58,915 bases of DNA, from NCBI GenBank assembly GCA_947631925.1, contig CANRNE010000013.1, forward strand, positions 1 to 58,915, given 5' to 3'. Origin of the DNA: an uncultured Clostridia bacterium (GTDB lineage Bacteria > Bacillota > Clostridia > Christensenellales > Borkfalkiaceae). Positions 196-54,424 of the stretch are shown here, piece by piece. The notes beneath the pieces are model-generated. The model did not search any database and had not been told where the DNA came from. It was given only the letters and a program-made list of their open reading frames with translations. Numbering within the stretch: the stretch's first letter is position 1; the number at the start of each line of letters is the position of its first letter. The position numbers and the translations under genes were made by a program.

Positions 196-224
196 TTGAC
201 AAACTGCTGCGGTTCGGGTATGAT
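196..224 (+). promoter_or_regulatory. Sigma-A promoter of the HAD gene; implies a leaderless mRNA
   Basis: TTGACA (196-201), 17-bp spacer, TATGAT (219-224). The predicted transcription start is about 231, which is the A of the ATG. No Shine-Dalgarno sequence precedes that ATG. Confidence 0.75.
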
Positions 225-230
225 AATCCT

Positions 231-905
231 ATGCAGCAGACACATCGCTTTTCGCTTGGGACAAATGCCGTTTACGGCGCCGTCATCTTTGATTTTGACG
301 GCGTCATTCTTGATACAGAGCGCTATCATCTCGCCGCGTGGAATGCCGCCGCGGCGCGTTTTTCTCTCTCTTTTTCCGAGGAAGAATATCTCCCCCTGAA
401 GAGCACGGGGAGGCCGTATATCGCATCTGTCCTCGAAAAAAAGGCGGGGCGGAAGTTCTCCGAGTCGGAGCGGCGCACCCTGTTCGAAGAGAAGCAGGCG
501 TACTTTGAAGAGGGGATAAAATCGCTCGGGGAGGGGGACCTCATCGCGGGCGCGGTGGACTTTTTGCGGTTTTTGCAACGGGAGAATATCCCCGCCGCGG
601 TGGCGTCCTCGGGGACGCTCTGCACCGTGCTGGCGAAGAGGTTCGGGCTGGACGGGTACTTTTCGTTTATTCTCGGCCCGCGGGACGATCTCGCCAAAAA
701 ACCCGCCCCCGACTGCTTTCTTGCGGCGGCGAAGAGGCTGGGTTTTGCGCCTGCGGACTGCCTTGTCGCGGAAGACTCCGAGGCGGGGCTTGCCGCGGCG
801 CACGCGGCGGGCATGGATGCCATTGCCATCGGCAAGGCGAGAGGGGACTGCGTCCTCCGCACCCCCGACTTTACGAAAGTTCTCCCGCTGTTTTGCCGAA
901 AGTGA
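231..905 (+). CDS. HAD-superfamily hydrolase, beta-phosphoglucomutase-like
   Basis: A 224-aa protein with HAD motif I FDFDGVILD near residue 20, motif II Ser in VASSG, motif III Lys in AKKPAPD and motif IV in VAEDSEAG. Length and the cap-1 insertion fit the phosphoglucomutase-like/phosphatase branch. It probably acts on a small cytosolic sugar phosphate or nucleotide; the substrate cannot be read. An in-frame ATG at 165 lies upstream of the promoter, so 231 is preferred. The gene appears monocistronic, followed by repeats. Confidence 0.85.
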   Translation: MQQTHRFSLGTNAVYGAVIFDFDGVILDTERYHLAAWNAAAARFSLSFSEEEYLPLKSTGRPYIASVLEKKAGRKFSESERRTLFEEKQAYFEEGIKSLGEGDLIAGAVDFLRFLQRENIPAAVASSGTLCTVLAKRFGLDGYFSFILGPRDDLAKKPAPDCFLAAAKRLGFAPADCLVAEDSEAGLAAAHAAGMDAIAIGKARGDCVLRTPDFTKVLPLFCRK

Positions 906-1440
906 GGGCGCGCGGAGCCACCTCCCCCCTTTTCTTCGAAAAAGGTGGAGGTTCTCTTGGCGCCCCCTTGAGGGTCGCAAACGCATTTCTCGCGCACAGC
1001 ACAGTGCGCTGTGCGCGGCGTTTGCGGTGAGTGAGCGCATTTGCCGCGCGAACGATGCCCGAGGACAGGACTCTACCTGTCCGAGAAAGCTGTCACGCAG
1101 TGACTGAGGGGGTGCCATTCCCAAATACTTGCGCGAGCAAAACCACGCTTTTGCGCTTTTGCGTGGGCGGCAGGGACCGCCGCACGCCTCTTCGCGGAGG
1201 CCACCGCTCATGTCGCGCCGCCGCTCACAGCACCCCGTGCTGTTGAGCGAGAATTGCGGCGCTCCACTCCATTTGCAACGCCACCGCAGGCTTATTGTCC
1301 GATAACACGACCGCGACAGTGAGCCTGTTAAGGCAATCGAGCCAATTTCCTCGACGAAAATATTTGCGTACGCAAATATTTTCGCCGAAACAAGAAAAAG
1401 AAATCTCGCGAAACAATAAATTTTTCTCATCTTTTTTTGC
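906..1440. repeat. Non-coding composite repeat region (R1 copy A, then R2 copy 1)
   Basis: R1 copy A spans about 976-1112. It contains nested inverted repeats: CGCAAACGC (976-984) with GCGTTTGCG (1018-1026), and CGCGCACAGC (991-1000) with GCTGTGCGCG (1008-1017). R2 copy 1 spans 1271-1405. Open frames on both strands here look unlike any protein and are treated as spurious. Confidence 0.75.
1355..1384. repeat. Perfect 30-bp palindrome inside R2 copy 1
   Basis: The left arm starts CGAAAATATTTGC and the right arm ends GCAAATATTTTCG. The equivalent stem at 46658-46686 carries two compensatory base-pair changes, which suggests selection on structure. Confidence 0.8.
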
Positions 1441-1448
1441 AAATAGGG

Positions 1449-1477
1449 TTGACAAGTTGAAAAACATGTAGTATTCT
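1449..1477 (+). promoter_or_regulatory. Sigma-A promoter of the zinc-ribbon gene
   Basis: TTGACA (1449-1454), 17-bp spacer, TATTCT (1472-1477). It leaves a leader of about 43 nt with GGAGG at 1516-1520, seven bases before the ATG at 1527. Confidence 0.7.
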
Positions 1478-1526
1478 ATTTATGATAGAATTTGATATGC
1501 GTAAAGGTATATCACGGAGGGTCATT

Positions 1527-2318
1527 ATGGCATATATTTGTCGGTATTGCAAACGCGCAATCTCCCCTGACGCAAGAGTATGTCCTCACTGCAAGAGGTT
1601 GAACATCAACACTTGCTCCGTCTGCGGAACGCGCATCTACAACGACGAGAAGTACTGCCCCGGTTGCGGGACACCCATTCTCGTGGCCTGCGAAAATTGC
1701 GGGGAGCTGATTTATAAGGGCGAAGTATACTGCCCGTACTGCGGTTCCAAGAACCAGAGTCACACCCCGTCCGGGAAGCCCGTGGAGAAAAAGGCATGCC
1801 TGAACACGGTCTCCGTCTCCTTGCCCCTTCCCCCCGTGAACGCCATCCCTTACGGCATTCCCTCTCCCTACGGCGGCACGATGGGCGCACCCATCGTACT
1901 TCCCCCTGTGATGCTGGATGCCCCCGTGGAAGAGAAGAAGGAAGAGCCCGAGGAAGAGCCGAAGCGCATCCTTCGCACCCGTCCCGCGCCCGAGGTCGGC
2001 CCCACGGCCCCTCGTCCCATCACCGGCGTGAGAGTGGGCTCCGTCGGCCTCATCCTCTCCCTCCTCTCCCTCTTCTTCCTGTTCCCGACAGTCATCTTCC
2101 CCTTCATCAGCCTCATCGTGAGCGCTGTGGGCATTCATAAGGACAAGAAGAACGGCCGCGGCATCGCCCCCGGCGTCATCGGGCTCATCATCAGCCTCAT
2201 CCTCGTCCTCGCCATCATCGCGGCGGTCGTCTGGGGCGTCTTCTTTGGCGGATGGAACCTCGTCGTCGACAAAGTGCTCTCACCCGCATTCCCCGACGTC
2301 GTCTTCCCGACCCTGTAA
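1527..2318 (+). CDS. Zinc-ribbon membrane protein (DUF4190-like C-terminus)
   Basis: A 263-aa protein. Residues 1-75 hold three CxxC...CxxC zinc ribbons of the YxC-P-x-CG type (CRYCK...CPHCK, CSVCG...CPGCG, CENCG...CPYCG). A proline- and acid-rich linker of about 90 residues follows, then two hydrophobic segments joined by a short HKDKKNGRG turn, as in DUF4190-type membrane proteins. The ribbons should be cytoplasmic. Role unknown; such proteins are thought to be regulators or scaffolds. The start at 1527 has a good ribosome site; an earlier in-frame ATG at 1482 does not. Confidence 0.8.
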   Translation: MAYICRYCKRAISPDARVCPHCKRLNINTCSVCGTRIYNDEKYCPGCGTPILVACENCGELIYKGEVYCPYCGSKNQSHTPSGKPVEKKACLNTVSVSLPLPPVNAIPYGIPSPYGGTMGAPIVLPPVMLDAPVEEKKEEPEEEPKRILRTRPAPEVGPTAPRPITGVRVGSVGLILSLLSLFFLFPTVIFPFISLIVSAVGIHKDKKNGRGIAPGVIGLIISLILVLAIIAAVVWGVFFGGWNLVVDKVLSPAFPDVVFPTL

Positions 2319-2325
2319 AAAACGT

Positions 2326-2353
2326 AAAAAAACGGGCAACTGCCCGTTTTTTT
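2326..2353 (+). terminator. Intrinsic terminator
   Basis: Stem ACGGGC/GCCCGT with loop AACT, preceded by an A-run and followed by seven T. It starts a few bases after the zinc-ribbon stop codon. Confidence 0.9.
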
Positions 2354-2375
2354 GTTAGCAAAGTTTCCGATTTGC

Positions 2376-2404
2376 TTGACACGCTCCCGCCGTGGGAGTA
2401 AAAT
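2376..2404 (+). promoter_or_regulatory. Sigma-A promoter of the isochorismatase-fold gene
   Basis: TTGACA (2376-2381), 17-bp spacer, TAAAAT (2399-2404). The spacer contains the inverted repeat CTCCC-GCCGT-GGGAG, a possible operator. Confidence 0.75.
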
Positions 2405-2432
2405 AGTGAAAAAACCAACAAGGAGAATTCAC

Positions 2433-2990
2433 ATGAATCATAAGACAGCCGTTCTCGTTGTGGATATGCTCAACGATTTCGTCACGGGGGCGCTCAAATG
2501 CGACAGGGGACTCGCCATCGTTCCCAAGACGGCAGCTCTTCTCGACGGCGCGAGAAGGGCAAACGTGCCCGTCATCTTCTGCAACGACGCGCATCTCAAA
2601 GATATCGACCACGAACTCAAACTGTGGGGCGACCACGCCATTGCGGGGACGAAGGGGGCGGAAGTCATCCCCGAACTCGGCATCTGCGACAAGGACTACG
2701 TCGTTCCCAAGCGCAGATATTCGGGATTTTTCCACACCGATTTGGACCTTCTTCTCAAAGAACTCGGCGTGGACACCGTCGTCATGACGGGACTGCACAC
2801 CCATATGTGCGTGCGCCACACCTCGGCGGACGCCTACCAGCTCGGCTACAACGTCGTCGTCGCGACGGACGCCACCGACTCCTTCACTGAAGAGGACTAC
2901 ACCTACGGGCTCAAATACCTCAAAGAGGTGTACGGTGCGGAGCTCGTGACGGTGGACGCATTGCTCTCCCGTTGGGGCGTCAAGGCGTAA
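2433..2990 (+). CDS. Cysteine hydrolase, isochorismatase/nicotinamidase family
   Basis: A 185-aa protein with the family's catalytic triad: Asp11 in VVDMLNDF, Lys93 in VVPKRRYSGF and Cys126 in HTHMCVRHT. The ring of small residues around the Cys fits amidohydrolases such as nicotinamidase (PncA), but the substrate could also be another amide. The metal-site histidines of classic PncA are not obvious, so nicotinamidase activity is only possible. AAGGAG at 2420-2425 fixes the start at 2433. It is monocistronic with its own promoter and a weak hairpin behind it. Confidence 0.85.
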   Translation: MNHKTAVLVVDMLNDFVTGALKCDRGLAIVPKTAALLDGARRANVPVIFCNDAHLKDIDHELKLWGDHAIAGTKGAEVIPELGICDKDYVVPKRRYSGFFHTDLDLLLKELGVDTVVMTGLHTHMCVRHTSADAYQLGYNVVVATDATDSFTEEDYTYGLKYLKEVYGAELVTVDALLSRWGVKA

Positions 2991-2995
2991 CAAGA

Positions 2996-3030
2996 AAAAA
3001 ATTCCCGCTTGCGGGCGGGGAAATTTTCCG
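2996..3030 (+). terminator. Possible terminator (GC hairpin with A/T flanks)
   Basis: An imperfect inverted repeat, AAATTCCCGC...GCGGG...GGGGAAATTTT, directly follows the hydrolase gene. The T-run is short. Confidence 0.45.
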
Positions 3031-3037
3031 AAAACAC

Positions 3038-3066
3038 TTGAAAATCCGCCCGCGGTACGCTATAAT
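3038..3066 (+). promoter_or_regulatory. Sigma-A promoter of the proline-rich zinc-ribbon gene
   Basis: TTGAAA (3038-3043), 17-bp spacer, TATAAT (3061-3066). GGAGG lies near 3108-3112, upstream of the ATG at 3118. Confidence 0.8.
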
Positions 3067-3117
3067 GATAGTACCCCGTGCGTTACCTCGGACGGAAAGT
3101 AAAATCTGGAGGATACT

Positions 3118-3660
3118 ATGCCCTATTGCACGAATTGCGGAACGTGGGTTCCCGACAACCAAAAGACCTGCCACGCCTGCGGAAAGGCGGTGAGAGCCGT
3201 AGAGGGGACACCTGCTCCCGCGCCTCAGCCTCAACCTCAGCCCGTCTATGCGAATCCCGTCTATGTTACGGCGCCGCAGCCCGCGCCCGTCGTCCCGCCC
3301 ATCCATGTCAATTATTTCGACCCCTATCAGGGGGTGGCGCCCTATGCGTATCCCGCACAGCCCTATCCTCAGCCGCCTGTGCCGCCTTACCCTGCACAGC
3401 CCTATCCCGCACAGCCCTATTTCCAGCCGCCGATGCCTCCCGCACCGCCCGTGCCGCCGATGGGGCCGCCCATGCCGTACGGCCAGCCCATGATGCCGTA
3501 CCCTTACATGGCGCCCGTGTACGCACCCGCACCCCAAGCGGCGCCCGCCCCCGAAGAGACGCCCGCCGCCGAAGAGACGCCTGCGGAAGAGCCTGTGGAG
3601 GAGCCCGCAAAAACCAAGCGCGGCCGCAAAGAAAAGCGCGCCAAAAAATTGAGAAAGTAA
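3118..3660 (+). CDS. Zinc-ribbon protein with a proline-rich repetitive tail
   Basis: A 180-aa protein. Residues 1-25 form one zinc ribbon (YCTNCG...TCHACGK). Residues 35-145 are low complexity, rich in Pro, Gln, Tyr and Ala with repeated PAQPYP-type units. An acidic Glu/Pro stretch and a strongly basic tail (KTKRGRKEKRAKK) follow. There is no TM segment, so it should be cytosolic, perhaps binding RNA or a surface through the tail. No function is assigned. It shares a zinc-ribbon N-terminus with the protein at 1527-2318. Confidence 0.75.
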   Translation: MPYCTNCGTWVPDNQKTCHACGKAVRAVEGTPAPAPQPQPQPVYANPVYVTAPQPAPVVPPIHVNYFDPYQGVAPYAYPAQPYPQPPVPPYPAQPYPAQPYFQPPMPPAPPVPPMGPPMPYGQPMMPYPYMAPVYAPAPQAAPAPEETPAAEETPAEEPVEEPAKTKRGRKEKRAKKLRK

Positions 3661-3676
3661 AAAGTGATTTAAAAAG

Positions 3677-3703
3677 GCGCCTGCCGCAATCCGCGGCAGG
3701 CGC
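3677..3703. terminator. Strong hairpin between convergent genes
   Basis: GCGCCTGCCGC (3677-3687) pairs with GCGGCAGGCGC (3693-3703). The flanks (AAAAA left, TTT right) would let it serve both the gene ending at 3660 and glyQS ending at 3733. Confidence 0.85.
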
Positions 3704-3732
3704 TTTCATGTATTTCGCTTGTCAACCGTGGC

Positions 3733-6260: not shown

Positions 6261-7109
6261 TCACAGGCGGAATGCCTTGAAGAGCAGTCTCGCCCCCAGC
6301 GTCGCCGCCCCGAAGAGGAGGAACCACTTGAGGAATTTGAAGGCAAGCCCCTCGGGGAAGAGGAGGGAGAGCCCGAAGACGGCGCCCGCGCATGCGCCGC
6401 CGACGACGACGCGCAGGAGCCGCCTCCACCACACCTTGGGCGCCTCATGGCGGATGAGGGACACGAAGGGGAGGAAGATTGCCCCGCCCGAGAGGAGCGC
6501 CGTCATCTCGATGAGGTCTTTCCCGGGGAAAAAGAAGCAGAGCACGAGGGCACAGACGGCCATTCCCATCAAGAAATAAAAGCGAAGGCGGTAGGCATGT
6601 CTGAAGATGAGCTGCCAGAAGAGCGCGATGGCGATACCGAGCAAGAACCCCGCGAGAAGGTCGGTCGGATAGTGGACGCCGAAGTACATCCGGGAACAGA
6701 CGATGGCAATGACGAGAAGGGGGGAGAGTATCCACAGCCACCACTTCTTCGCCCGCATGTCCGCGGCGAGAAGGGCAGACGTCGTCGCCTGCGCATGGCC
6801 GCTCGGGAAGGACAGCGTGTCGCCGAGGTCCGTCGTCGAGAAGATGGGGGTGTCCACCTTGAGAAGGTCGACGACGCCCGCCGCATAGGGACGGGGACGG
6901 GCGACGGTCGCCTTGAGCGAACTGTTTAGGGCGCAGGAGGAGATTGCGGTGAAGAGGAGCTGTTCGCCCGCCTCATCCCACAGCCAATACAGGAGGATGA
7001 CGATGCCCGCGACGACGGTGCCTTCGCCGAGCGTGGAGAAGATTCCGAACACGACGGTGAGGGCGTCACAGCGGATAGACTCGAAAAATTGCAGAATAGC
7101 CTGTTCCAT
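6261..7109 (-). CDS. PAP2-family membrane phosphatase
   Basis: A 282-aa polytopic membrane protein with the three PAP2 signatures in order: KATVARPRP, SFPSGHAQ and SRMYFGVHYPTDLLAG. These supply the nucleophilic and acid/base histidines. Family members dephosphorylate lipid phosphates, for example undecaprenyl pyrophosphate in wall lipid recycling; the exact lipid cannot be read. It is divergent from glnS and lies 27 bp ahead of ldhA, possibly co-transcribed with it. The start codon is 7 nt from the -10 box, with no ribosome site. Confidence 0.88.
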   Translation of the reverse strand: MEQAILQFFESIRCDALTVVFGIFSTLGEGTVVAGIVILLYWLWDEAGEQLLFTAISSCALNSSLKATVARPRPYAAGVVDLLKVDTPIFSTTDLGDTLSFPSGHAQATTSALLAADMRAKKWWLWILSPLLVIAIVCSRMYFGVHYPTDLLAGFLLGIAIALFWQLIFRHAYRLRFYFLMGMAVCALVLCFFFPGKDLIEMTALLSGGAIFLPFVSLIRHEAPKVWWRRLLRVVVGGACAGAVFGLSLLFPEGLAFKFLKWFLLFGAATLGARLLFKAFRL

Positions 7110-7116: not shown

Positions 7117-7125
7117 ATTATATCA
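7117..7125 (-). promoter_or_regulatory. Extended -10 promoter of the PAP2 gene; implies a leaderless mRNA
   Basis: TGATATAAT on the minus strand (7125-7117), seven bases before the ATG. The -35 region is poor (AGACTT at 17 bp). Confidence 0.65.
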
Positions 7126-10306: not shown

Positions 10307-10307
10307 C

Positions 10308-13358: not shown

Positions 13359-16172
13359 ATGAACGACTTTATCATTGTCAAGGGCGCGAAGGAAAACAAC
13401 TTAAAGAACATCGATGTCAAAATTCCGCGGGGCTCTCTCACCGTCTTTACGGGTCTCTCGGGCAGCGGGAAGTCCACGCTCGCCTTCGACACCATCTTCG
13501 CCGAGGGCCAGCGCCGCTATATGGAGAGTCTCTCCTCCTACGCCCGCCAATTCCTCGGCATGATGGAAAAACCCGACGTGGAGAGCATCGAAGGGCTCTC
13601 CCCCACCATCTCCATCGACCAGAAGACGACCTCGCACAACCCCCGCTCCACGGTGGGGACGGTGACGGAGATTTACGACTATCTCCGCCTTCTCTTTGCG
13701 CGCGCGGGAACGCCGCACTGCCCCAACTGCGGGCGGGAAATCAAGCGGCAGACGGTGGACGAGATTGCGGACAAGGTCATGGAATTGCCGACAGGGAGCA
13801 AGATTCTCGTCACCGCGCCCGTCATTCGGGGCAAGAAGGGGGAATATAAGAAGGAGCTCGCCGCCTACCGCAAGAGCGGCTTTGCCCGCGTCAAGATAGA
13901 CGGCATCGTCTATGACCTGCAGGAGGAGATTTCGCTCGAGAAGAACATCAAGCACAACATTTCCGTCGTCGTCGACCGCCTGGTCGTCAAAGAGGGCATT
14001 CTCCGCCGCCTGACGGAATCCCTCGAGACGGCGCTCCGCCTCTCGGACGGGCTCGCCGTCATCGACTGCGAGGGCGAGGAGACCCTCTTTTCCTCCCGCT
14101 ACGCCTGTCCCGACTGCGGCATCTCCATCGAGGAAATCGAGCCTCGTCTCTTCTCCTTCAACACCGTCTGGGGGGCATGTCCCTCCTGCTCGGGGCTGGG
14201 CTTTACGCAGAAGGTGGACGCCGACCTCATCTGCCCCGACCGCACCAAGACGCTCCGCGAGGGCGCCATTCGCATCAGCGGGTGGAATTTGGACTCCTCC
14301 GCCGTCACGCAGACCTATCTCGGCGCGCTCTCCAAGCGGTACAACTTCTCCATGGACGTCCCCGTAAAGGACCTTCCCCAAGAAGTCTTCGACCTGCTCA
14401 TGTACGGCAACGGCGGGGAGAAGATTCCCCTCGAATACAACACCAAGACCTTCCACTCCACCTATCAGGCGGCATGGGAGGGCTTTGTCAACAACTTGCA
14501 ACGCCGCTATGAGCAGACCTCTTCCATCGGCGTGAAGTGGGACATCGAGCGGTACATGCGCACGAGCGACTGCCCCGTCTGCCACGGGCGGCGGCTCAAA
14601 AAGGAGGCGCTCGCCGTCACGGTGGGGGAGAAGAACATCTCCGAAATCTGCGACATGCCCGTGGGAGCGCTCAAGGAATTTCTCGCGGGAGTTCCCCTCA
14701 CCGCCACGCAGCACGCCATCGCGGACGGAATTCTGAAGGAGATTCGCGCCCGCCTCGACTTTCTCATCGGCGTCGGGCTCGACTATCTCACTCTCTCGAG
14801 GAGCGCGGCGACGCTCTCGGGAGGGGAGAGCCAGCGCATCCGCCTCGCCACGCAGATTGGAAGCGCGCTCACGGGCGTGCTCTACATTCTCGACGAGCCG
14901 TCCATCGGACTGCACCAGCGGGACAACGAGAAGCTCCTCGCGTCCTTGAAGGGCCTTCGCGACATCGGCAACACCCTCATCGTTGTCGAGCACGACGAGG
15001 ACACGATGCGGGCGGCGGACTATCTCGTGGACATGGGCCCCAAGGCGGGCATCCACGGCGGGGAAGTCGTCGCCTGCGGCACCGTGGAGGACATCATGAA
15101 CGAGCCGCGCTCGATTACGGGGGACTACCTCGCGGGGCGGCGGCACATTCCCGTCCCCTCCGTTCGGAAGAAGCCCGACGGCAGATGGCTGAAGGTCTAT
15201 GGCTGTGCCCAAAACAACTTGAAAAACATCGATGTCGCCATTCCGGCGGGACTCGTCACCCTCGTCACGGGGGTGAGCGGGTCGGGGAAGAGCTCCCTCG
15301 TCAATGAAATTTTATATCCCATTCTCGCGAACGGGCTCAACGGCGCCCGCCTTCCCCGCGGAAAGAGCGGAGATTGCGAGGGGTTGGAATACTTCGACAA
15401 AGTCATCGCCATCGACCAGTCTCCCATCGGCAGGACGCCCCGCTCCAACCCCGCAACCTATACGGGAGTCTTCACCGCCATCCGCGACCTCTTCGCCGCG
15501 ACGACGGACGCCAAGACGATGGGCTTCAAGTCGGGACGGTTTTCCTTCAACGTCGCGGGCGGCAGGTGCGAAAACTGTCAGGGCGACGGCATCATGAAGA
15601 TAGAGATGCACTTCCTGCCCGACGTGTACGTCCCCTGCGAAGTGTGCGGGGGAAAGCGGTACAACCGCGAGACGCTCGAAGTTTCCTACAAAGGAAAGAA
15701 CATCGCCGACGTGCTCGACATGACGGTGGAGGAGGCGTGCGACTTCTTCAAGAACCAAGCCTCCATCTACAACAAGATTTCCACCCTCAACGAGGTAGGG
15801 CTGGGCTATATCAAGCTCGGGCAGTCCTCGACGACGCTCTCGGGCGGCGAGGCACAGCGCGTGAAACTTGCGACCGAGCTCTCCAAACGCTCGACGGGGA
15901 AGACTTTCTACATTCTCGACGAGCCGACGACGGGCCTCTCGAGCTACGACGTCGAAAAATTGGTGAAGATTCTCCTGCGCCTGCGCGACGGCGGGAACAC
16001 AGTTGTGGTCATCGAGCATAATTTGGACGTTGTGAAGATTGCCGACTACATCATCGACCTCGGCCCCGAGGGCGGGGACGGCGGCGGGGAAGTGGTCGCC
16101 TGCGGCACTCCCGAGGAAATTGCGGCATGCCCGCAGTCCTACACGGGGCAATTTTTGAAAAAGATTTTGTGA
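13359..16172 (+). CDS. uvrA: UvrA, excinuclease ABC subunit A
   Basis: A 937-aa damage-recognition ATPase of nucleotide excision repair. It has two ABC ATPase halves: Walker A GLSGSGKST and signature TLSGGESQRIRLA in the first, Walker A GVSGSGKSS and signature TLSGGEAQRVKLA in the second. Zinc modules CPNCG...CPDCG and CENCQGDG...CEVCGG are intact. Length is typical. The start follows a hairpin with no evident Shine-Dalgarno sequence, so how translation begins is unclear. The aminotransferase follows by 7 bp, so the two are probably co-transcribed. Confidence 0.97.
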   Translation: MNDFIIVKGAKENNLKNIDVKIPRGSLTVFTGLSGSGKSTLAFDTIFAEGQRRYMESLSSYARQFLGMMEKPDVESIEGLSPTISIDQKTTSHNPRSTVGTVTEIYDYLRLLFARAGTPHCPNCGREIKRQTVDEIADKVMELPTGSKILVTAPVIRGKKGEYKKELAAYRKSGFARVKIDGIVYDLQEEISLEKNIKHNISVVVDRLVVKEGILRRLTESLETALRLSDGLAVIDCEGEETLFSSRYACPDCGISIEEIEPRLFSFNTVWGACPSCSGLGFTQKVDADLICPDRTKTLREGAIRISGWNLDSSAVTQTYLGALSKRYNFSMDVPVKDLPQEVFDLLMYGNGGEKIPLEYNTKTFHSTYQAAWEGFVNNLQRRYEQTSSIGVKWDIERYMRTSDCPVCHGRRLKKEALAVTVGEKNISEICDMPVGALKEFLAGVPLTATQHAIADGILKEIRARLDFLIGVGLDYLTLSRSAATLSGGESQRIRLATQIGSALTGVLYILDEPSIGLHQRDNEKLLASLKGLRDIGNTLIVVEHDEDTMRAADYLVDMGPKAGIHGGEVVACGTVEDIMNEPRSITGDYLAGRRHIPVPSVRKKPDGRWLKVYGCAQNNLKNIDVAIPAGLVTLVTGVSGSGKSSLVNEILYPILANGLNGARLPRGKSGDCEGLEYFDKVIAIDQSPIGRTPRSNPATYTGVFTAIRDLFAATTDAKTMGFKSGRFSFNVAGGRCENCQGDGIMKIEMHFLPDVYVPCEVCGGKRYNRETLEVSYKGKNIADVLDMTVEEACDFFKNQASIYNKISTLNEVGLGYIKLGQSSTTLSGGEAQRVKLATELSKRSTGKTFYILDEPTTGLSSYDVEKLVKILLRLRDGGNTVVVIEHNLDVVKIADYIIDLGPEGGDGGGEVVACGTPEEIAACPQSYTGQFLKKIL

Positions 16173-28888: not shown

Positions 28889-28918
28889 CGCCTCCGCTGC
28901 ATGCGGAGGCGTAATTTT
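28889..28918 (+). terminator. Intrinsic terminator
   Basis: CGCCTCCGC (28889-28897) pairs with GCGGAGGCG (28903-28911); TAATTTT follows. Confidence 0.8.
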
Positions 28919-28929: not shown

Positions 28930-28958
28930 TTGCAATCCCGCCCGAAATGTGCTACAAT
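28930..28958 (+). promoter_or_regulatory. Sigma-A promoter of ispE; implies a leaderless mRNA
   Basis: TTGCAA (28930-28935), 17-bp spacer, TACAAT (28953-28958), then seven bases and the ATG at 28966. There is no ribosome site. Confidence 0.75.
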
Positions 28959-28965: not shown

Positions 28966-29820
28966 ATGGATACCGTGCACGTCAACGCCTATGCCAAACT
29001 CAACCTCACCCTCGACATCGTGGGAACGGGCGAGGGGTATCATCTCATCGATTCGGTGATGGCGACGGTGGACCTCTTCGACCGCATTGTGCTCAAAAAG
29101 CGGAAGGGGCTCTCCCGCATCTTCGTGCACGGCGCCCAAATCCCGCCCGAACAAAATTCCGCGCTTGCGGCAGCGGAGGCATTTTCCGACCGCTTCGGCG
29201 TGGACGGCGCGGACATCACCGTGTACAAAAATATCCCGATAGGCGCGGGCATGGGTGGCTCGTCCGCGGACGCAGCGGGGGTCATCGCGGGCATGGGTAG
29301 GCTGTATGCGGTCTCGGACATGAGTGCCATGTACGAGCTCGCGCAGTCGCTCGGGAGCGACGCCCCCTTCCAGCTCCACGGCGGGATTTGCCGCGCCCGA
29401 GGGCGGGGAGAACTTCTCACGCCGCTACCCTTTCACGAATTATACTTCCTCGTCCTCGTCCCCCGCGTGCCCGTACTTTCTGCCGCGGCGTACCGCACGT
29501 TTGACGAAATGGGACTTTCGGGGGGCGCCCGCACCGGGTTGGCGGCAGAGGAGCTCGAGGGGGGAAGGGTTGACTGGGCGGCGAAGTGCTTCGGAAACGA
29601 CCTCTATCCCGCCGCCTGCGCGTTGGAGCCCGCCGTGCGCGAGGCATATCTCTATCTCAAATCGCTCTCCCCGGGCGGAGTCTCCATGACGGGGTCGGGG
29701 AGCGCCGTCTTTGCCTGTTTCGAGAGCCGTGAGCTCGCCGAATGGGGGCAGAGCAGATACCGCGGCAAGTGCCGCACCTTTGTGCTTAAGACCGTTCCGC
29801 AAGAGAACGGAAGGAAGTGA
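28966..29820 (+). CDS. ispE: 4-diphosphocytidyl-2-C-methyl-D-erythritol kinase
   Basis: A 284-aa GHMP kinase of the MEP isoprenoid pathway. It has the diagnostic start VNAYAKLNLTLDIVG, the phosphate loop IGAGMGGSSADAAG and the C-terminal MTGSGSAVFA. An in-frame ATG at 28957 overlaps the -10 box, so MDTVHV at 28966 is the start. A four-gene run follows (292-, 99- and 397-aa proteins) with 4-10 nt gaps or overlaps, likely one operon. Confidence 0.94.
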   Translation: MDTVHVNAYAKLNLTLDIVGTGEGYHLIDSVMATVDLFDRIVLKKRKGLSRIFVHGAQIPPEQNSALAAAEAFSDRFGVDGADITVYKNIPIGAGMGGSSADAAGVIAGMGRLYAVSDMSAMYELAQSLGSDAPFQLHGGICRARGRGELLTPLPFHELYFLVLVPRVPVLSAAAYRTFDEMGLSGGARTGLAAEELEGGRVDWAAKCFGNDLYPAACALEPAVREAYLYLKSLSPGGVSMTGSGSAVFACFESRELAEWGQSRYRGKCRTFVLKTVPQENGRK

Positions 29821-33453: not shown

Positions 33454-33793
33454 AATTTCCTCCGAAATTTTTTAATGCCTTGCTTTCGTCCTTTTTATGA
33501 TATTTTCTAATGCTTTTTACAACTTTTTCATTGCACGTGATGTTTGTAAGCGTGCGGTTATACCGATTTACTTTGTCATATTGTTTTGTGCCGTCTTTGT
33601 GCTTATACGGTTTTGATTGTATCGACCTTCCGAATAAATTCCGTACCAAGTCCGTCTTTTTCAAATCCCGTTTTGGTTCGGCAATTCGATTCTGTGCGTG
33701 CGAAGAAACGGTATACTTCCCCATACGCACGCGCGGCGTATCTTTTTTAGCCATTTCTTTTTTCGGCTTAAAAAGAAAACCCAATATGCTCAT
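33434..33793 (-). CDS. Basic unknown protein, first gene of the accessory operon
   Basis: A 119-aa strongly basic protein (about 30 Lys/Arg). The segment YTVSSHAQNRI followed by RYNRTLTNITCNEKVVKSI loosely resembles small DUF4258/BrnT-like folds (S-x-HAxxR). That similarity is weak and not a firm assignment. AAGGAAGG precedes the ATG by about nine bases. Divergent from the WYL regulator and probably controlled by it. AT-rich codon use marks it as accessory. Confidence 0.65.
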   Translation of the reverse strand: MSILGFLFKPKKEMAKKDTPRVRMGKYTVSSHAQNRIAEPKRDLKKTDLVRNLFGRSIQSKPYKHKDGTKQYDKVNRYNRTLTNITCNEKVVKSIRKYHKKDESKALKNFGGNYGKGKN

Positions 33794-33854
33794 ATTCTAA
33801 ACCCTTCCTTTCATTTTGTCAAGTGAAATAGCATCTTGTTCCACTCGCATTTTC

Positions 33855-35423: not shown

Positions 35424-36503
35424 TCATGAAAGGCAGGAGAGGATTGTATGGGCTGCGAAGAGGACCTCGTCTTTGGTCGTCTGCATGCCGAAGGAGAAGC
35501 GGACGCCGCACCGCGCCGCATGTTCATTGCGGCCCATCGCGAGCATCACGTGGGAGGGCTTGGGGTCGTGCGCCGAACACGCCGCCCCGCCCGAGGCCGC
35601 TACTCCGTGCAAGTCGAGCGCATAGAGAAGGGTCTCGCCCCCCTCAAAGGTGATGTGCGAGATGTTGGGAACGCGGCATCTCCCGTCCACGGTCATCTTT
35701 TCTCCCAGAGCGGCGGAAAGCGTCCCCTCGAAAAGTTCCCGAAGTTCCCCCGTGTGGCGGCAGAACTGCTCCCGTTCCTCGGCGGCAAGTTCGAGCGATT
35801 TTGCCATTCCCATGGCCGCCATGAGGTTGGAAGTCCCCCCGCGCAGGCCGCGTTCCTGCTCCCCGCCCACAAGAAGAGAACGAAGGGGAATGCCCTGCTT
35901 GACGACGAGAACGCCCGCCCCCTTGGGTCCGCCGAGCTTGTGCGCGGAGAGGGAGACGGCGTCCGCATCGCGGAGAATTTTTTGTATGTCCTGCGAGCAA
36001 GCCGCCTGAACGCAATCGGAAAAGAGTATACCGCCGCGGGCATGGGTGGCACGTGCGATTTCGGAGAGGGGTTGCAGGCTTCCGACCTCATTATTGGCAC
36101 CCATGACCGCAACAAGACCTACATGTTCGGGCATGGTATGCTCAAAATCCGTCAAAATTCCGTCCCCGTCCACCTTTCCGAAAAAGACGGGCGTGCCCCG
36201 CACGGGCGCAGCGGAGAGCACTGCGGCGTGCTCCGTCGGGGAAAGATACAGGGGTCCGTCGCCGAGACAGCGAATTGCCCAGTTGTCGGCCTCCGTCCCT
36301 CCGGAGGTAAAATACACCTCCCGCGCGGAGACGCCGAGCACGCGGGCAATGCGGTCGCGCGCGTCGAGAAGCGCAGCGGCGGCCTTTCTTCCCGCGGCGT
36401 GGAGAGAATCGGGGTTGGCAAACAGTTCCGCGGCGGCGAGCATTTCCTCCGAGACTTCCCGCCGAAGGGGAGCCGTTGCCGCATAGTCGAGATACGCATT
36501 CAT
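35424..36503 (-). CDS. iscS: Cysteine desulfurase, NifS/IscS-like
   Basis: A 359-aa PLP enzyme that takes sulfur from cysteine for Fe-S clusters or thio-modified tRNA. It shows AYLDYAATAP, the PLP lysine in SLSAHKLGGPKGAG and the active-site loop ASGGAACSAHDP holding the catalytic Cys. MNAYLD at 36503 is the start, because the promoter lies between it and the upstream ATG at 36542. That promoter implies leaderless mRNA. No iscU or thiI neighbour is in view, so the sulfur acceptor is unknown. Confidence 0.92.
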   Translation of the reverse strand: MNAYLDYAATAPLRREVSEEMLAAAELFANPDSLHAAGRKAAAALLDARDRIARVLGVSAREVYFTSGGTEADNWAIRCLGDGPLYLSPTEHAAVLSAAPVRGTPVFFGKVDGDGILTDFEHTMPEHVGLVAVMGANNEVGSLQPLSEIARATHARGGILFSDCVQAACSQDIQKILRDADAVSLSAHKLGGPKGAGVLVVKQGIPLRSLLVGGEQERGLRGGTSNLMAAMGMAKSLELAAEEREQFCRHTGELRELFEGTLSAALGEKMTVDGRCRVPNISHITFEGGETLLYALDLHGVAASGGAACSAHDPKPSHVMLAMGRNEHAARCGVRFSFGMQTTKDEVLFAAHTILSCLS

Positions 36504-36509: not shown

Positions 36510-36538
36510 ATTATAGAGCAATCCGCGGCGGTTGTCAA
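36510..36538 (-). promoter_or_regulatory. Sigma-A promoter of the cysteine desulfurase; implies a leaderless mRNA
   Basis: On the minus strand: TTGACA (36538-36533), 17-bp spacer, TATAAT (36515-36510), six bases, then ATG. Both boxes are full consensus. Confidence 0.85.
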
Positions 36539-38265: not shown

Positions 38266-38294
38266 TTGCCAATCGCACGAAAGCGTGGTATAAT
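38266..38294 (+). promoter_or_regulatory. Sigma-A promoter of rsmA; implies a leaderless mRNA
   Basis: TTGCCA (38266-38271), 17-bp spacer, TATAAT (38289-38294), six bases, then the ATG at 38301. Confidence 0.82.
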
Positions 38295-38300: not shown

Positions 38301-39110
38301 ATGGACTACGGGGAAATTCTGAGGCGGCACGGCTTCGGATTCAAGAAAAAATTCGGGCAGAACTTTCTGTCCGACGAAAATCTGCTCGCCGCCATCGTCC
38401 GCGATGCGGAGGTGGAGGGGGAGACGGCCGTCGAAATCGGGGCGGGCGCAGGGGCCCTCACGCGCGCCCTTGCCGCGAGCGCTTCCCGCGTCGTCGCCTT
38501 TGAAATCGACAGATCTCTCGCGCCCGTGCTCTCGGAGACGCTTATGGGCTGCGAAAACGTCGAGGTGCGCTTTTCGGACTTCATGAAGTGCAACCTTGCC
38601 GCCCTCGAGGAGGAGCTCGGCAGCTACTCCGTCGTCGCCAATTTGCCCTACTATGTGACCACGCCGCTCGTGATGCGGCTCGTCGAGGAGGGGAAGAATT
38701 GCCGCTCCGCCACCGTGATGGTGCAGGAGGAAGTCGCGCTTCGGCTGTGCGCCAAGGCGGGGACGGCGGACTACGGCGCCGTGACCTGTGCCATCGCGCG
38801 GCGGGGGACGGCAACGATTGTAAGAAAGGTGCCGCGCACGCTCTTCTATCCCCGCCCCAATGTGGACTCCGCCGTCGTCAGGCTCGACTTTACGAAGGGG
38901 GGATTTGCCGCCGACGCGAAGAAGTACCGCGCCGTCGTGCGCGCGGCGTTTGCGGCCCGCAGAAAGACGCTCGAGAACGCGATGATGAATGCCTTCCGCC
39001 TCAGCCGCGAAGAGGCCGCCGACCTCTTGGCGCGTGCGGACATCCCCAAAGGGGTGCGCGGGGAGGCCCTTTCCCCCGAACAGTTCGCCCGCATCGCAGA
39101 ACTTTTATGA
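38301..39110 (+). CDS. rsmA: 16S rRNA (adenine(1518)-N6/adenine(1519)-N6)-dimethyltransferase
   Basis: A 269-aa SAM methyltransferase (KsgA) that dimethylates two adenines near the 3' end of 16S rRNA during small-subunit maturation. It has FKKKFGQNFL, motif I EIGAGAGALTRALA, the catalytic NLPYYVTTPLV and FYPRPNVDSAVVRL. Start MDYGEILRRHGF is set by the family N-terminus and the promoter. It follows spoIVFB closely but is transcribed separately. Confidence 0.95.
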   Translation: MDYGEILRRHGFGFKKKFGQNFLSDENLLAAIVRDAEVEGETAVEIGAGAGALTRALAASASRVVAFEIDRSLAPVLSETLMGCENVEVRFSDFMKCNLAALEEELGSYSVVANLPYYVTTPLVMRLVEEGKNCRSATVMVQEEVALRLCAKAGTADYGAVTCAIARRGTATIVRKVPRTLFYPRPNVDSAVVRLDFTKGGFAADAKKYRAVVRAAFAARRKTLENAMMNAFRLSREEAADLLARADIPKGVRGEALSPEQFARIAELL

Positions 39111-49774: not shown

Positions 49775-49803
49775 TTGCAAACCGCGCGAATTTGTTGTAT
49801 AAT
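49775..49803 (+). promoter_or_regulatory. Sigma-A promoter of the TGS-kinase gene
   Basis: TTGCAA (49775-49780), 17-bp spacer, TATAAT (49798-49803). The leader holds a hairpin CCCGAC/GTCGGG (about 49811-49827). Confidence 0.8.
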
Positions 49804-49859
49804 AAAGAACCCGACACGGCGTCGGGAATATTTTGATACTATATGTAAGGGGAATTTTT

Positions 49860-51518
49860 ATGATACAAGTGGAATTCAACGGCAAAAAAATGTCTGTAGC
49901 GCCCGGGACCCGCGTCCGCGAGCTCGTGGAGGAGGGGGACAGGCAGAACCTCGTCCTCTGTCAGGTGGGCGCGCAAGTCAAGGAACTCAACTACATCCTG
50001 TCCGAAAAGAACGACGGCATGGCAATCAAACTGCTCAACCTCAGCAATGCCGAGGCGGGGCGGGCGTACAGCGCCAGTCTGCGCTACATCATCGCCATGG
50101 CGTTTTATCGCATCTATCCCGATGTGAAAATCCGTTTTTCCTACAACATCTCCCGCTCCATCGCCTGTCAGGCGCTCACCGAGAACTTCAACATGTCGCG
50201 GGCGGTGGATGCCATCTCCGAAGAGGTGAAGCGCATCATCGAGGCGGACCTTCCCATCGAGCGGGTGACCGTTACCATCGAAGAGGCGACGGAAATCTAT
50301 AAGAAGTTCCACCTCGACGACAAGATTGAGATTCTCAAATACCGTCCCGAGAACACCGTGCATCTCTACAAATGCGGCAACTATTATAATTATTTGCACA
50401 ATTATATGGTCCCGTCGACGGGGTGCATCCATAACTATACCATCACGCCGTACAGCCCCGGAATTATCATCCAGTATCCCCGTCACGACCTCGAGACCAA
50501 CGTCCCCGAGTTCGAGGAGGAGGCAAATTACTGTAAGACGCTCCAGCGCGCATACAACTGGGCGAAGGCGACGGGGACGCAGACCGTCGACGACATCAAC
50601 CGCAAGATAGACCGCGGCGAGACGCTCGAGTTCGTGCAGATGTGCGAGGCGTATCACAACCGCCAGCTCACCGAGCTGGGGGACATGATTGAAGGGGACA
50701 TCGAAAACGTGCGCCTCATCGCGATTGCGGGCCCCAGTTCGAGCGGAAAGACGACATTCTGCAACCGTCTGCGCATCGAGCTGCTCTCCCGCGGCATCAA
50801 TCCCGTCACGATCTCGATGGACGACTACTACTTCGAGAAGGATAAACTGTGCGAAATTCAGGGAAAACCCTTGGGCGAGCTCGACCTCGAGCACATCAAC
50901 TGCCTCGACGTGGGGCTCTTCAATAAGGACCTCTTCGACCTCATCAACGGCGAAGAAGTCACCCTGCCCCGCTTCAACTTCCAGACGGATAAGCGGGAGG
51001 CGGGCAAGACCATCCGCGTCGAACAGAACGTGCCCATCATCATTGAGGGCATCCATGCCCTCAACGAGAAGCTCACAAAGTCCATTCCCAAACATCAGAA
51101 GTTCAAGATTTACATTGCCCCGCACGCCCAGCTCAACATCGACAACCACTCCCCGCTCTCCGTCACCAACGCGAGACTCATCCGGAGAATCGTGCGCGAT
51201 ATGAAGTTCCGCAACTGCTCCGCGGCGAACACCATCGACATGTGGCAGTCGGTGCGCAACGGGGAATTCCGCTGGATTTACCCCAATCAGGAGAACGCGG
51301 ACTTCGTGTTCAACTCCAGCTTGGGCTATGAGCTCTGCGTGCTCAAAAAGCAGGCGATGGAGGCGCTCTCCGCAATCTCCGCACAGGCCCCGCAGTACCT
51401 CGTCGCCAATCGGCTCATGAAGACGCTGAAGTACTTCCGCTCCATCGACGACGACTCCCTCGTCCCCTGCAACTCCCTCCTGCGCGAATTCATCGGCGGC
51501 AGCTGCTTCAACGTCTGA
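49860..51518 (+). CDS. Uridine-kinase-like nucleoside kinase with TGS and ThrRS-like N-terminal domains
   Basis: A 552-aa protein. Residues 1-60 form a TGS domain (VEFNGKKMSVAPGTRVRELV). A ThrRS-editing-like region follows (to ~200; YIIAMAFYRIYPDVKIRF). The C-terminal half is a P-loop kinase with AGPSSSGKTTF, TISMDDYYFEKDKL and IIIEGIHALNE, as in uridine kinase. This fused architecture is known in Clostridia and others. Its substrate is unproven. AAGGGG precedes the ATG. Monocistronic: promoter and terminator flank it. Confidence 0.85.
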   Translation: MIQVEFNGKKMSVAPGTRVRELVEEGDRQNLVLCQVGAQVKELNYILSEKNDGMAIKLLNLSNAEAGRAYSASLRYIIAMAFYRIYPDVKIRFSYNISRSIACQALTENFNMSRAVDAISEEVKRIIEADLPIERVTVTIEEATEIYKKFHLDDKIEILKYRPENTVHLYKCGNYYNYLHNYMVPSTGCIHNYTITPYSPGIIIQYPRHDLETNVPEFEEEANYCKTLQRAYNWAKATGTQTVDDINRKIDRGETLEFVQMCEAYHNRQLTELGDMIEGDIENVRLIAIAGPSSSGKTTFCNRLRIELLSRGINPVTISMDDYYFEKDKLCEIQGKPLGELDLEHINCLDVGLFNKDLFDLINGEEVTLPRFNFQTDKREAGKTIRVEQNVPIIIEGIHALNEKLTKSIPKHQKFKIYIAPHAQLNIDNHSPLSVTNARLIRRIVRDMKFRNCSAANTIDMWQSVRNGEFRWIYPNQENADFVFNSSLGYELCVLKKQAMEALSAISAQAPQYLVANRLMKTLKYFRSIDDDSLVPCNSLLREFIGGSCFNV

Positions 51519-51549
51519 CGCCCCTCGGATACAATCAAAGATACGATGC

Positions 51550-51578
51550 AAAATGGCGCTCCGCGCCATTTTGTTTTG
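51550..51578 (+). terminator. Intrinsic terminator
   Basis: AAAATGGCGC (51550-51559) pairs with GCGCCATTTT (51563-51572), then GTTTTG. Confidence 0.88.
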
Positions 51579-51619
51579 AAAAGGAATGTTCTACAACAGG
51601 TTTGCAATGCAAAACGAGC

Positions 51620-51770
51620 GGCCGCGTTCATCATGATGAGACAGGGTGCTCCGCCGCAGGCGGTGAGGGGGGCGCTCATATCAGAACCCCTTTCCCCCGC
51701 TGTGCGGCTTGGTCGAAATGACGGAAAATGACCTTCGGGCGGGCGAGAGGGGGCTGAATTTTCCCGTTTG
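51620..51770. repeat. Degenerate REP-like repeats
   Basis: Contains GCTTGGTCGAAATGACGG near 51708-51725, the inverse of the words at about 35118 and 35152. No credible gene in 51579-51835. Confidence 0.55.
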
Positions 51771-51835
51771 GGCGGGGATTGGGCGCGGTTTTTTGGTTTT
51801 TTTGGTGGAATGTTGCAAAAAAACGGCCAAAAGTC

Positions 51836-51864
51836 TTGCGCTTCTTTTGTCGGCATGCTATAAT
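51836..51864 (+). promoter_or_regulatory. Sigma-A promoter of upp
   Basis: TTGCGC (51836-51841), 17-bp spacer, TATAAT (51859-51864) with an extended TGC. Confidence 0.8.
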
Positions 51865-51892
51865 AATCACGGCCCCGAAGAGGAGGTACAAA

Positions 51893-52531
51893 ATGAACGC
51901 TTTTCCCAACGTATTCATCTTCGACCATCCGCTCATCAAGCACAAAGTTTCCATTCTCCGTGACAAGAACACGGGGATGAAACAGTTCCGCGAACTCGTC
52001 GAAGAGATTACGACGATGATGACGTACGAGAGCATGCGCGACGTGCAGCTCGAACCTGTGGAAGTGGAGACTCCCCTCGAAAAGACGGTGCAGTGGCGCG
52101 TTCCCGAGGAGAGCGTCGCCATCGTTCCCATCCTCAGGGCGGGGCTCGGCATGGTCAACGGCGTCCACAAGGTCTTCCCGACGGCGCGCGTGGGACACAT
52201 CGGCATGTATCGGGACGAAGTCACGCTCGAGCCGCATGAATACTATTGCAAGCTCCCCGACGGCATCGAAAACAAGACGGTGTTCCTCGTAGACCCCATG
52301 CTCGCAACGGGCGGCTCCGCCTGCGATGCGCTTGCGGCACTCAAAAAACGCGGGGCGAAACACATCAAATTCATGGCCATCATCGCAGCCCCCGAAGGCA
52401 TCCAAGCGGTGGCGAAGGCACATCCCGACGTCCCCGTCTACGTCTCCACGCTCGACCGCTGTCTCAACGAACACGGCTACATCTTGCCCGGGCTCGGCGA
52501 CGCGGGGGACCGACTTTTCGGAACCAAGTGA
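51893..52531 (+). CDS. upp: Uracil phosphoribosyltransferase
   Basis: A 212-aa enzyme of pyrimidine salvage (uracil + PRPP to UMP). It has the family start [32 protein letters not shown], the PRPP loop [14 protein letters not shown] and the C-terminal [22 protein letters not shown] lies 5 nt before the ATG. The RadC-like gene follows 32 nt later with its own AGGAGG, probably in one operon. Confidence 0.96.
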
Positions 52532-52563
52532 AGGAGGCGCGCAGGCGCCATCAGGAGGAAACA

Positions 52564-53292
52564 ATGGACCAAACCCATGCAGGACACAGGCAGAGAATGC
52601 TTGTTCGGCTGCTCGAACACCGCGAGAGCCTGAACGACCACGAACTGCTTGAAATCCTGCTTTTTTTCTCGATTCCGCGCGTCAACACCAACGAACTCGC
52701 GCACACCCTCCTCTCCTCCTTTCAAAATCTTGACGGCGTCATGCGCGCAAGCTACGAACAGCTCCTCTCAATCAACGGAATCGGGAAGAATACCGCCATG
52801 CACATCCTCTGCCTCCAAGAGGTCCTTCGCCGCATCAAGGGCGTGGAGAAGGAGGAACGGCGGGATGCGCTCAACATGCGCAACTTCTCCGAATGGGCGG
52901 CAAGCCACCTCTCCGCGCTCACGACGGAAGTGGTGGAAATTTTTTTCTTCAACAACCATCAGGAGATGTGCTTTACCCGCAGGTTCACGGACAACTGCTT
53001 CGACGAGGCGTCCGTCAACGCCGAGGAAATCAACAAACTCTTCGCCTCCCAACGGCCGCATGCCGTCATCGTCGCGCACAACCACCCCGACGGCGCCTCC
53101 GCGCCCTCCGACCAGGACGACATGTTCACCGCCCAAATTCAGGTCATCTGTTCGCTGCACGGCATCCTTTTGTACGACCACATCATCGTGGGAACGGGAA
53201 AGCCGTATAGCTATAACCTCAGCGGGCGGCTGGATACCATTCGGGAGAATTTCAACATCAACAACCTCTCAAAACGCAAAGATTTGATGTAA
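52564..53292 (+). CDS. radC: RadC-family JAB1/MPN-domain protein
   Basis: A 242-aa protein. The N-terminal helix-hairpin-helix part has INGIGKNTAMHI. The C-terminal JAMM-like metal site is AHNHPDGASAPSDQDDMFT (HxH...D). Historically named for DNA repair, but the family's role is unsettled. Slightly diverged from the usual HNHPSG. AGGAGG fixes the start. Confidence 0.88.
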   Translation: MDQTHAGHRQRMLVRLLEHRESLNDHELLEILLFFSIPRVNTNELAHTLLSSFQNLDGVMRASYEQLLSINGIGKNTAMHILCLQEVLRRIKGVEKEERRDALNMRNFSEWAASHLSALTTEVVEIFFFNNHQEMCFTRRFTDNCFDEASVNAEEINKLFASQRPHAVIVAHNHPDGASAPSDQDDMFTAQIQVICSLHGILLYDHIIVGTGKPYSYNLSGRLDTIRENFNINNLSKRKDLM

Positions 53293-53310
53293 AAGTAGCG
53301 AAAATTTAAG

Positions 53311-53332
53311 TATTTCGATAAAAATCGAAATA
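53311..53332. repeat. Perfect 9-bp inverted repeat
   Basis: TATTTCGAT (53311-53319) and ATCGAAATA (53324-53332) around an AAAA loop, just after radC. Confidence 0.7.
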
Positions 53333-53351
53333 AGAAATCCATAATATTTCG

Positions 53352-53384
53352 ACGCCGTAACCGAGGTGGGGGACGGCGTTTTTG
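53352..53384 (+). terminator. Intrinsic terminator
   Basis: ACGCCGT (53352-53358) pairs with ACGGCGT (53373-53379); a T-run follows. Confidence 0.8.
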
Positions 53385-53414
53385 TTTGTTTTGCGGCAAG
53401 ATTTGCGATTTTGC

Positions 53415-53443
53415 TTGCTTTCGCGGCGCAAAAAGTGTATAAT
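53415..53443 (+). promoter_or_regulatory. Sigma-A promoter of the asparaginase; implies a leaderless mRNA
   Basis: TTGCTT (53415-53420), 17-bp spacer, TATAAT (53438-53443), six bases, then the ATG at 53450. Confidence 0.78.
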
Positions 53444-53449
53444 CGAGGC

Positions 53450-54424
53450 ATGAAGAAGATTCTGCTCATCGCAACGGGCGGCACGATTGCGGCAAGGCCG
53501 ACCGAGAGCGGGCTCGCGCCCGTCATCACGCCGCAGGAGCTCCTCTCTTACGTTCCCGAGATTGCAAACGTCGCGGCGGTGGAGGAGGTGCAGCCCTTCC
53601 TCTTGGACAGCACGAACATCTCCCCCGACCACTGGCTGAAGCTCGCCTCCGTCATCGAGGCGCGGTATGCCGACTTCGACGGCTTTGTCGTGACGCACGG
53701 GACGGACACGATGGCGTATACCGCCGCCGCGCTCTCCTATCTCATCGCGGCGTCCCCCAAGCCCATCGTGCTCACGGGCTCGCAGAAGTCCATCTTTCTT
53801 CGGGACACCGACGCGCGGGAGAACCTCGCGGGGGCGTTTTCCTACTGCGCGGACGACGGCGCGCACGGCGTGCACATCGTCTTTGACGGGAAGGTGATTT
53901 TGGGCACCCGCGCCAAGAAGACGCGTACCCGCAGCTACAACGCCTTTTCGAGCATCGACTACCCCGAGGTCGCCATCATCAAGGACGGCAAGCCCTGCTA
54001 CTTTATCCGCGAGGAGGAAACGGGCGGCCCCGTCTTTTCGCACGCGCTCTCGAAAGGGGTATTTGTTCTCAAACTCATACCCGGGCTGAGTTCGGACATC
54101 TTCGACTATCTCGATACGCACGCGGAGGCGCTCGTCATCGAATCCTTCGGCACGGGCGGCCTTCCCGCCTACGGTGGCTGGGAAGAGCGGCTGGCGGCAT
54201 TTTTGAGGCGCGGAAAGACCGTCGTGTTCACCACGCAGGTGGAGCGGGAGGGGAGTGCGCTCGACCGCTATGAAGTGGGCGGAAAGCTCAAGCGGTACGG
54301 CCGCGTGCTCGAGGCGCGCAGCATGACGCTCGAGGCGGCAGTCTGCAAGCTGATGTGGCTCCTCGCGCAAGGGGGCGACCTCGAGGCGCGCTTCTATTCC
54401 CCCGTCGCGCACGACATTCTTTGA
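53450..54424 (+). CDS. ansA: L-asparaginase, type I
   Basis: A 324-aa cytosolic enzyme that hydrolyses asparagine to aspartate and ammonia. It starts MKKILLIATGGTIAARP, with the first catalytic Thr in ATGGTIA and the second triad in THGTDTMAYTA. FGTGGLPAYGGW and the Lys region GSQKSIF fit. No signal peptide, so type I. The HAD gene follows 52 nt downstream, likely co-transcribed. Confidence 0.94.
   Translation: MKKILLIATGGTIAARPTESGLAPVITPQELLSYVPEIANVAAVEEVQPFLLDSTNISPDHWLKLASVIEARYADFDGFVVTHGTDTMAYTAAALSYLIAASPKPIVLTGSQKSIFLRDTDARENLAGAFSYCADDGAHGVHIVFDGKVILGTRAKKTRTRSYNAFSSIDYPEVAIIKDGKPCYFIREEETGGPVFSHALSKGVFVLKLIPGLSSDIFDYLDTHAEALVIESFGTGGLPAYGGWEERLAAFLRRGKTVVFTTQVEREGSALDRYEVGGKLKRYGRVLEARSMTLEAAVCKLMWLLAQGGDLEARFYSPVAHDIL

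Follow-up and report, generated by a model that had tools for sequence, protein, structure and literature searches.

The window analysed here (58,915 nucleotides; positions 1 to 58,915 of the forward strand of contig CANRNE010000013.1, GenBank assembly GCA_947631925.1, an uncultured Clostridia bacterium that GTDB places in the Christensenellales, family Borkfalkiaceae) raises the question of whether some of its genes are expressed from leaderless mRNAs, i.e. transcripts that begin at the start codon itself. It holds six genes at which a -10 box ends 6 or 7 nt before the ATG, all of them where a first-pass annotation, made from the sequence alone, had located them. As that annotation had also claimed, none of the six carries a Shine-Dalgarno (SD)-like motif at -15 to -4. 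The spacing of such boxes across the genome, the base that precedes the ATG, and the conservation of part of the orthologues support the proposal that RNA starts at or next to the A of the ATG, and we consider it highly probable that the six genes, together with a genome-wide class to which they belong, are transcribed as leaderless mRNAs from near-ATG promoters. These would be ordinary sigma-70-type promoters, sited such that RNA polymerase would begin transcription on the A of the ATG when the gap is 6 nt, and a base or two before the ATG when it is 7-8 nt. The resulting mRNA would have no room for an SD site and would be translated as a leaderless message, its 5'-terminal AUG being recognised with initiator tRNA. 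Box, spacing, -35 element, initiator base, SD absence and conservation are all read from the DNA; from them we infer the transcription start and the mode of translation.

Four of the six genes have a 6-nt gap. The HAD-like hydrolase (predicted leaderless; 231..905, plus strand; PF00702/PF13419) follows a TTGACA -35 box at 196..201 and a TATGAT -10 box at 219..224. Gene rsmA (ksgA; 38301..39110, plus strand; PF00398) is predicted to be leaderless behind TTGCCA (38266..38271) and TATAAT (38289..38294), as is, on the minus strand, the cysteine desulfurase-like gene of the class V aminotransferases (35424..36503; PF00266) behind TTGACA (36533..36538) and TATAAT (36510..36515). The asparaginase gene (53450..54424, plus strand; PF00710), also predicted leaderless, has TATAAT at 53438..53443 and a weak -35 box, TTGCTT (53415..53420), that keeps 3 of 6 consensus bases. 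The remaining two have a 7-nt gap: ispE (28966..29820, plus strand; PF00288; predicted leader 0-2 nt), with TTGCAA at 28930..28935 and an extended -10 element, TGC-TACAAT, at 28950..28958, and the PAP2-superfamily gene (6261..7109, minus strand; PF01569; predicted leaderless), with TATAAT at 7117..7122. The claim of a -35 box at exactly 17 bp for five of the six stands for the HAD, ispE, cysteine desulfurase, rsmA and asparaginase genes; no good -35 box was found for PAP2, the best candidate being GAGACT at 18 bp. Pfam agrees with the gene families that had been assigned, with the qualification that the only matches of the ispE product are to GHMP kinase domains and that its name is taken over from the first-pass annotation. 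In G018, another genome of the genus, a protein whose N-terminus nearly matches that of the window PAP2 protein begins, as judged by eye, at TATAAT-N6-ATG. An Rfam scan of the window returned no family above its threshold.

Whether the spacing is a property of the genome was examined by the genome-wide count of TATAAT-to-ATG distances that the first-pass annotation had proposed, and the peak proved to be genome-wide and specific to 6-7 nt. The source genome (G000) is a metagenome-assembled genome (MAG) of 1.92 Mb in 75 contigs, 98% complete, and in a 459 kb sample of it 321 genes were called on coding score alone, blind to upstream signals. In 12 called genes an exact TATAAT has its end at offset 6-7; the other 16 offsets up to 17 (0-5 and 8-17) yield 3 in total (Poisson, 1e-14). 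Eight of these 12 genes are not in the window, and in one of the eight the box precedes a GTG. Another 30 called genes have an exact TATAAT at offsets 18-47, where leadered promoters would lie. Among the 16 sites found at called genes in the sample, 14 have a -35 box with at most 2 mismatches at 16-18 bp, a proportion that is 18% in a comparison set of 1241 similar boxes. The rpsP site (C2:76842) was removed from the 16 as probably false, on inspection by eye, an in-frame ATG overlapping the box. The leaderless-looking genes then number 15 of 321, or 4.7% (Poisson interval 2.5-7.2%), which scales to about 63 genes in the genome.

Over the complete assembly, TATAAT-N6-ATG occurs 46 times and TATAAT-N9-14-ATG 65 times, i.e. 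10.8 per control spacing, giving a ratio of 4.25 (p 3e-12). A dispersed repeat that contains TATAAT-GCGGAT-ATG inflates the raw N6 count: four copies were met in the genome, one at the edge of the window (68-82, minus strand) and the others at C4:18684, C15:31944 and C21:22293. Five of the 46 N6 sites look repeat-derived, and p is 6e-10 without them.

The excess extends through the genus. Relatives found by name were uncultured Clostridia and their relatives from gut samples. In 37 genus genomes, counting the source genome, the N6 ratio ranges from 2.0 to 16.9 with a median of 3.46 (p<1e-4 in 34). In 35 relatives it lies between 2.0 and 5.9; the 36th, G003, owes its 16.9 to a repeat, its excess (104 sites) being largely one repeated 15-mer and variants thereof. 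In G003, TATAAT-AAGGAC-ATG and close variants of it occur in dozens of copies and seem to form a large dispersed repeat family. Other families of the order are represented by 24 genomes, in which the ratio is highest in G051 (2.88) and G041 (2.58) and lowest in G039 (0.66). None of 298 other genomes of the phylum reaches p 1e-3, the smallest value being 1.4e-3, in a test that is weaker in AT-rich genomes owing to their high background. Their median ratio of 0.83 means that unrelated matches are common, as would be expected if the boxes were chance AT-rich stretches before a start codon that happen to resemble a -10 box. For the class as a whole we give that explanation almost no credence: it has to face the ratios of the source genome and of its 35 relatives, and the -35 boxes, the initiator base and the sharing between orthologues are evidence separate from the spacing count. 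Single genes, for example asparaginase with its weak -35 box, could nevertheless be chance matches.

The initiator base gives an additional reading of the start point. A pyrimidine would be expected before the ATG were the RNA to start at its A, and it is found at 24 of 24 coding-like N6 sites of the source genome (one of them, C4:18707, lies over the repeat and is unlikely to be a gene), at 21 of 22 in G015 and at 27 of 27 in G018. Pooled over these three species, the pyrimidine stands at 72 of 73 sites compared with 191 of 281 (68%) called ATG starts (p 2e-11). In G051, which belongs to another family, it occurs at all 27 N6 open reading frames (ORFs) of at least 60 codons, and across the listed sites the count is 117 of 126 for four genomes of the genus versus 71 of 150 for the phylum. 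Many of the same sites also have a -35 box with at most 2 mismatches: 17 of 24 in the source genome, 20 of 22 in G015, 17 of 27 in G018, and 19 of 27 in G051 (ORFs of at least 60 codons). Start codon usage favours ATG: where an N6 site of the 459 kb sample opens an ORF of 100 codons or more, the start is ATG in 10 cases, GTG in 2 and TTG in 1. The initiator signature points to, and supports, an RNA start at the A of the ATG for the 6-nt class.

For the 7-nt class the most instructive gene is ispE. Protein searches with ispE, cysteine desulfurase, rsmA and asparaginase covered 23 genomes of the genus and 14 from other families, and the expectation that the gap would be conserved in orthologues was borne out for ispE: 21 of 22 genus loci, with protein identities as low as about 40%, have a box 6-8 nt before the ATG. 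In the 21 aligned promoters the TTG of the -35 box, the TG before the -10 box and TAnAAT are invariant, the C that follows TTG is kept in 20, and the spacer is variable. Eight ispE loci from other families were examined as well, of which G041 and G043 have TATAAT-N6-ATG and G046 has TATAAT-N8-ATG. The gap within the genus is 7 nt in 16 loci, 8 nt in three and 6 nt in two, while a purine lies 7 nt past the box in 18 of the 21. Such wobble by a base or two is what one would see if the box fixed the point at which transcription begins and the genes had very short leaders of 1-3 nt; at the 6-nt class, on the other hand, the pyrimidine-A step coincides with the A of the ATG. We regard short leaders as a serious possibility, if one we tend to doubt; it covers a subset of the genes and is compatible with the leaderless reading. 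For ispE and other genes with a 7-nt gap, transcription is predicted to start at a purine one base before the ATG, and the leader may measure 0-2 nt.

Conservation of a different kind emerges when whole sets are compared. The source genome has 32 N6 ORFs of 50 or more codons, a set that probably includes some non-genes; for 13 of them, a relative also occurs as an N6 ORF in G015 (which has 32) or G018 (31). By pair, 11 are shared between the source genome and G015, 10 between the source genome and G018, and 16 between G015 and G018, where chance would give about 0.4-0.6 per pair (calculated from somewhat smaller sets, of 26-30, and for an assumed 1700 genes). Among the 13 are uvrC, an M24 peptidase, aroA (EPSP synthase), a ThiF-family gene, an HMA protein, an integrase, fumarase, a CAAX-protease-like gene and a nadD-like gene. 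A match between the HTH gene C1-73494 and G018 L324 was weak (28%) and was excluded from the count. Fumarase and the CAAX-protease-like gene form a divergent pair, both with TATAAT-N6-ATG, in the source genome, G015, G029 and G003, their promoters lying about 70 bp apart (L239/L240, G000 C21 near 14781-14865). The N6 arrangement is also present in G051 at uvrC (51-55% identity) and at the nadD-like gene (about 30%).

The same alignments bear on the idea that the start codons are misplaced and that the true starts lie downstream behind normal leaders. The upstream-blind caller picked the start considered here for five of the six window genes, that of the HAD gene included; at ispE it preferred an ATG that lies three codons further upstream and overlaps the -10 box, leaving this start call ambiguous by that distance, and three of the 13 shared proteins have aligned starts 4-15 residues apart. 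Against this, the other 10 have starts only 0-2 residues apart, and the alignments of ispE and cysteine desulfurase with their relatives reach the ATG or come to within a few residues of it; misplaced starts therefore strike us as a very improbable explanation.

Several results weigh against leaderless transcription, of the class or of particular genes. Of the 46 N6 matches in the source genome, 22 start no coding-like ORF, and 15 of these 22 nonetheless carry the pyrimidine before their ATG; some of the 22 are real small or atypical genes and others are repeats or a tRNA promoter. The 7-nt class breaks the pyrimidine rule at the base preceding the ATG. The gap conservation seen for ispE holds only in part for cysteine desulfurase, which has TATAAT-N6-ATG in 10 of 22 genus loci (the source genome included) and lacks the arrangement in 12, nine of which have an SD-like motif; it fails for rsmA (2 of 23 loci, in the source genome and G002) and for asparaginase (1 of 21, the source genome only). 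Nor are the first 40 nt less structured than those of SD-led genes (mean minimum free energy -5.53, n=92, versus -5.50, n=145; p 0.97), an unstructured 5' end being a correlate of leaderless mRNAs and not a defining feature.

Another explanation accepts the promoters as real and holds that the starts near the ATG are minor ones, with upstream promoters and SD-led translation in use as well. It has a precedent in Clostridium phytofermentans, where candidate leaderless genes are reported generally to have another upstream start and a typical ribosome-binding site (PMC5171806). Many genes of the source genome carry SD sites, and SD-like motifs among the called genes peak at offsets 4-7. Such a motif is missing from 23 of the 24 coding-like N6 sites, the exception being a GGAG, and a terminator-like hairpin (28889..28911, plus strand; a pattern match only) lies directly 5' of the ispE promoter, which suggests that ispE has its own transcript. 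We therefore think it improbable that these are minor starts. Loss of the anti-SD sequence was considered as a cause of leaderless initiation and not adopted: the usual 16S 3' end, GGATCACCTCCTT, was found in 5 of the 37 genus genomes, the source genome not being one of them, and the likely reason for so few matches is that rRNA ends are missing from MAGs, so that the source genome may still have undergone such a loss.

The first-pass annotation had called leaderless mRNAs little described in Clostridia, a fair statement in view of the mapped transcriptomes: they are reported there, and as rare. The figures given are 4% of intergenic sense transcription start sites (TSS), mostly with a ribosome-binding site; 2-3% of transcripts; 15 genes; about 70 (2%); and 11 ORFs (PMC5171806, PMC9045289, PMC7438776, PMC6873888, PMC6239172). 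These figures come from bacteria of the same class as the source genome, with starts at or near the start codon; the definitions vary (<6 or <10 nt, TSS or genes), which makes any comparison with our 5% a loose one. Leaderless genes are known in many bacteria, and a survey of 953 genomes used the same definition as ours, a TA-like signal just 5' of the start (Zheng 2011, PMC3160421). Its Firmicutes examples of these TA-led genes are concentrated in Lactobacillales and Mycoplasma, and its main text does not contain the string 'clostridi'. A close likeness is offered by Deinococcus-Thermus, in which a -10-like motif lies 6-7 bp before the start codon and other genes have a ribosome-binding motif (PMC12340547). 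That motif is TANNNT and is found at nearly one-third of the D. radiodurans genes, whereas in our genome the box is close to TATAAT, usually has a -35 box at 17 bp, and marks about 5% of called genes. Leaderless starts were also found by 5'-end mapping (Cappable-seq) in a gut microbiome sample; they made up 10 and 15% of TSS in Akkermansia and Bifidobacterium, and the mapped Lachnospiraceae species did not figure among those highlighted (PMC4782308).

Among the papers listed by our literature searches, which were directed at this group and at gut MAGs and from which subscription papers were largely absent, none was seen to describe leaderless genes in this group. Seven leaderless genes have been reported in Sporomusa. 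Sporomusa belongs to a class other than Clostridia. The genus of the source MAG appears to include Candidatus Gallimonas, which is presumably a member of the GTDB order Christensenellales. NCBI taxonomy lists Candidatus Gallimonas as Clostridia incertae sedis. The mechanism proposed here is a known one; the lineage is new, and the gene set is conserved to an unusual degree.

Some other sites were met alongside. On the minus strand of the window (33793-33822), a TTGACA-17-TAGAAT promoter abuts an ATG with zero gap, before an ORF of 119 aa, in a stretch of low GC content (42% versus 59% for the window); the start of this ORF is doubtful because the RNA would begin inside it. Elsewhere in the genome a tRNA-Ser gene (L223 78-179, G000 C6 near 81987) lies 8 nt past a TATAAT box, and the 5' leader of its precursor would therefore measure only about 2 nt. 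According to Pfam, L019 (16656-18794, G000 C3) joins a shikimate kinase and a glutamyl/glutaminyl-type tRNA synthetase in a single ORF of 713 aa, which itself has a TATAAT 7 nt before its ATG. Two HD-domain fusions were seen, one of a cytidylyltransferase-like domain with HD (L242 150-1280) and one of HD with NUDIX (L006 7437-8501).

As for the biology behind the class, it is conceivable, though on the unlikely side, that selection has kept a fixed housekeeping and repair set (for instance uvrC, ispE, nadD-like, aroA, ThiF-family, fumarase) leaderless in one genus of gut Clostridia, with uvrC, ispE and the nadD-like gene so kept in other families of the order too. Such a set would give the cell a second translation channel, one whose genes it could favour jointly, for example via the balance of initiation factors, while SD-led genes follow the normal route. 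Leaderless initiation has been reported as rare in Clostridia from a few cultured species; here it looks genus-wide, and a clear second mode. The mode is detectable from genomes alone and is conserved at particular genes, which makes a case for asking whether leaderlessness itself is selected. Gene callers that expect an SD site may misplace such starts in gut MAGs, and inspecting the base before the ATG provides an easy way of testing for leaderless genes from sequence, with no need of RNA data.

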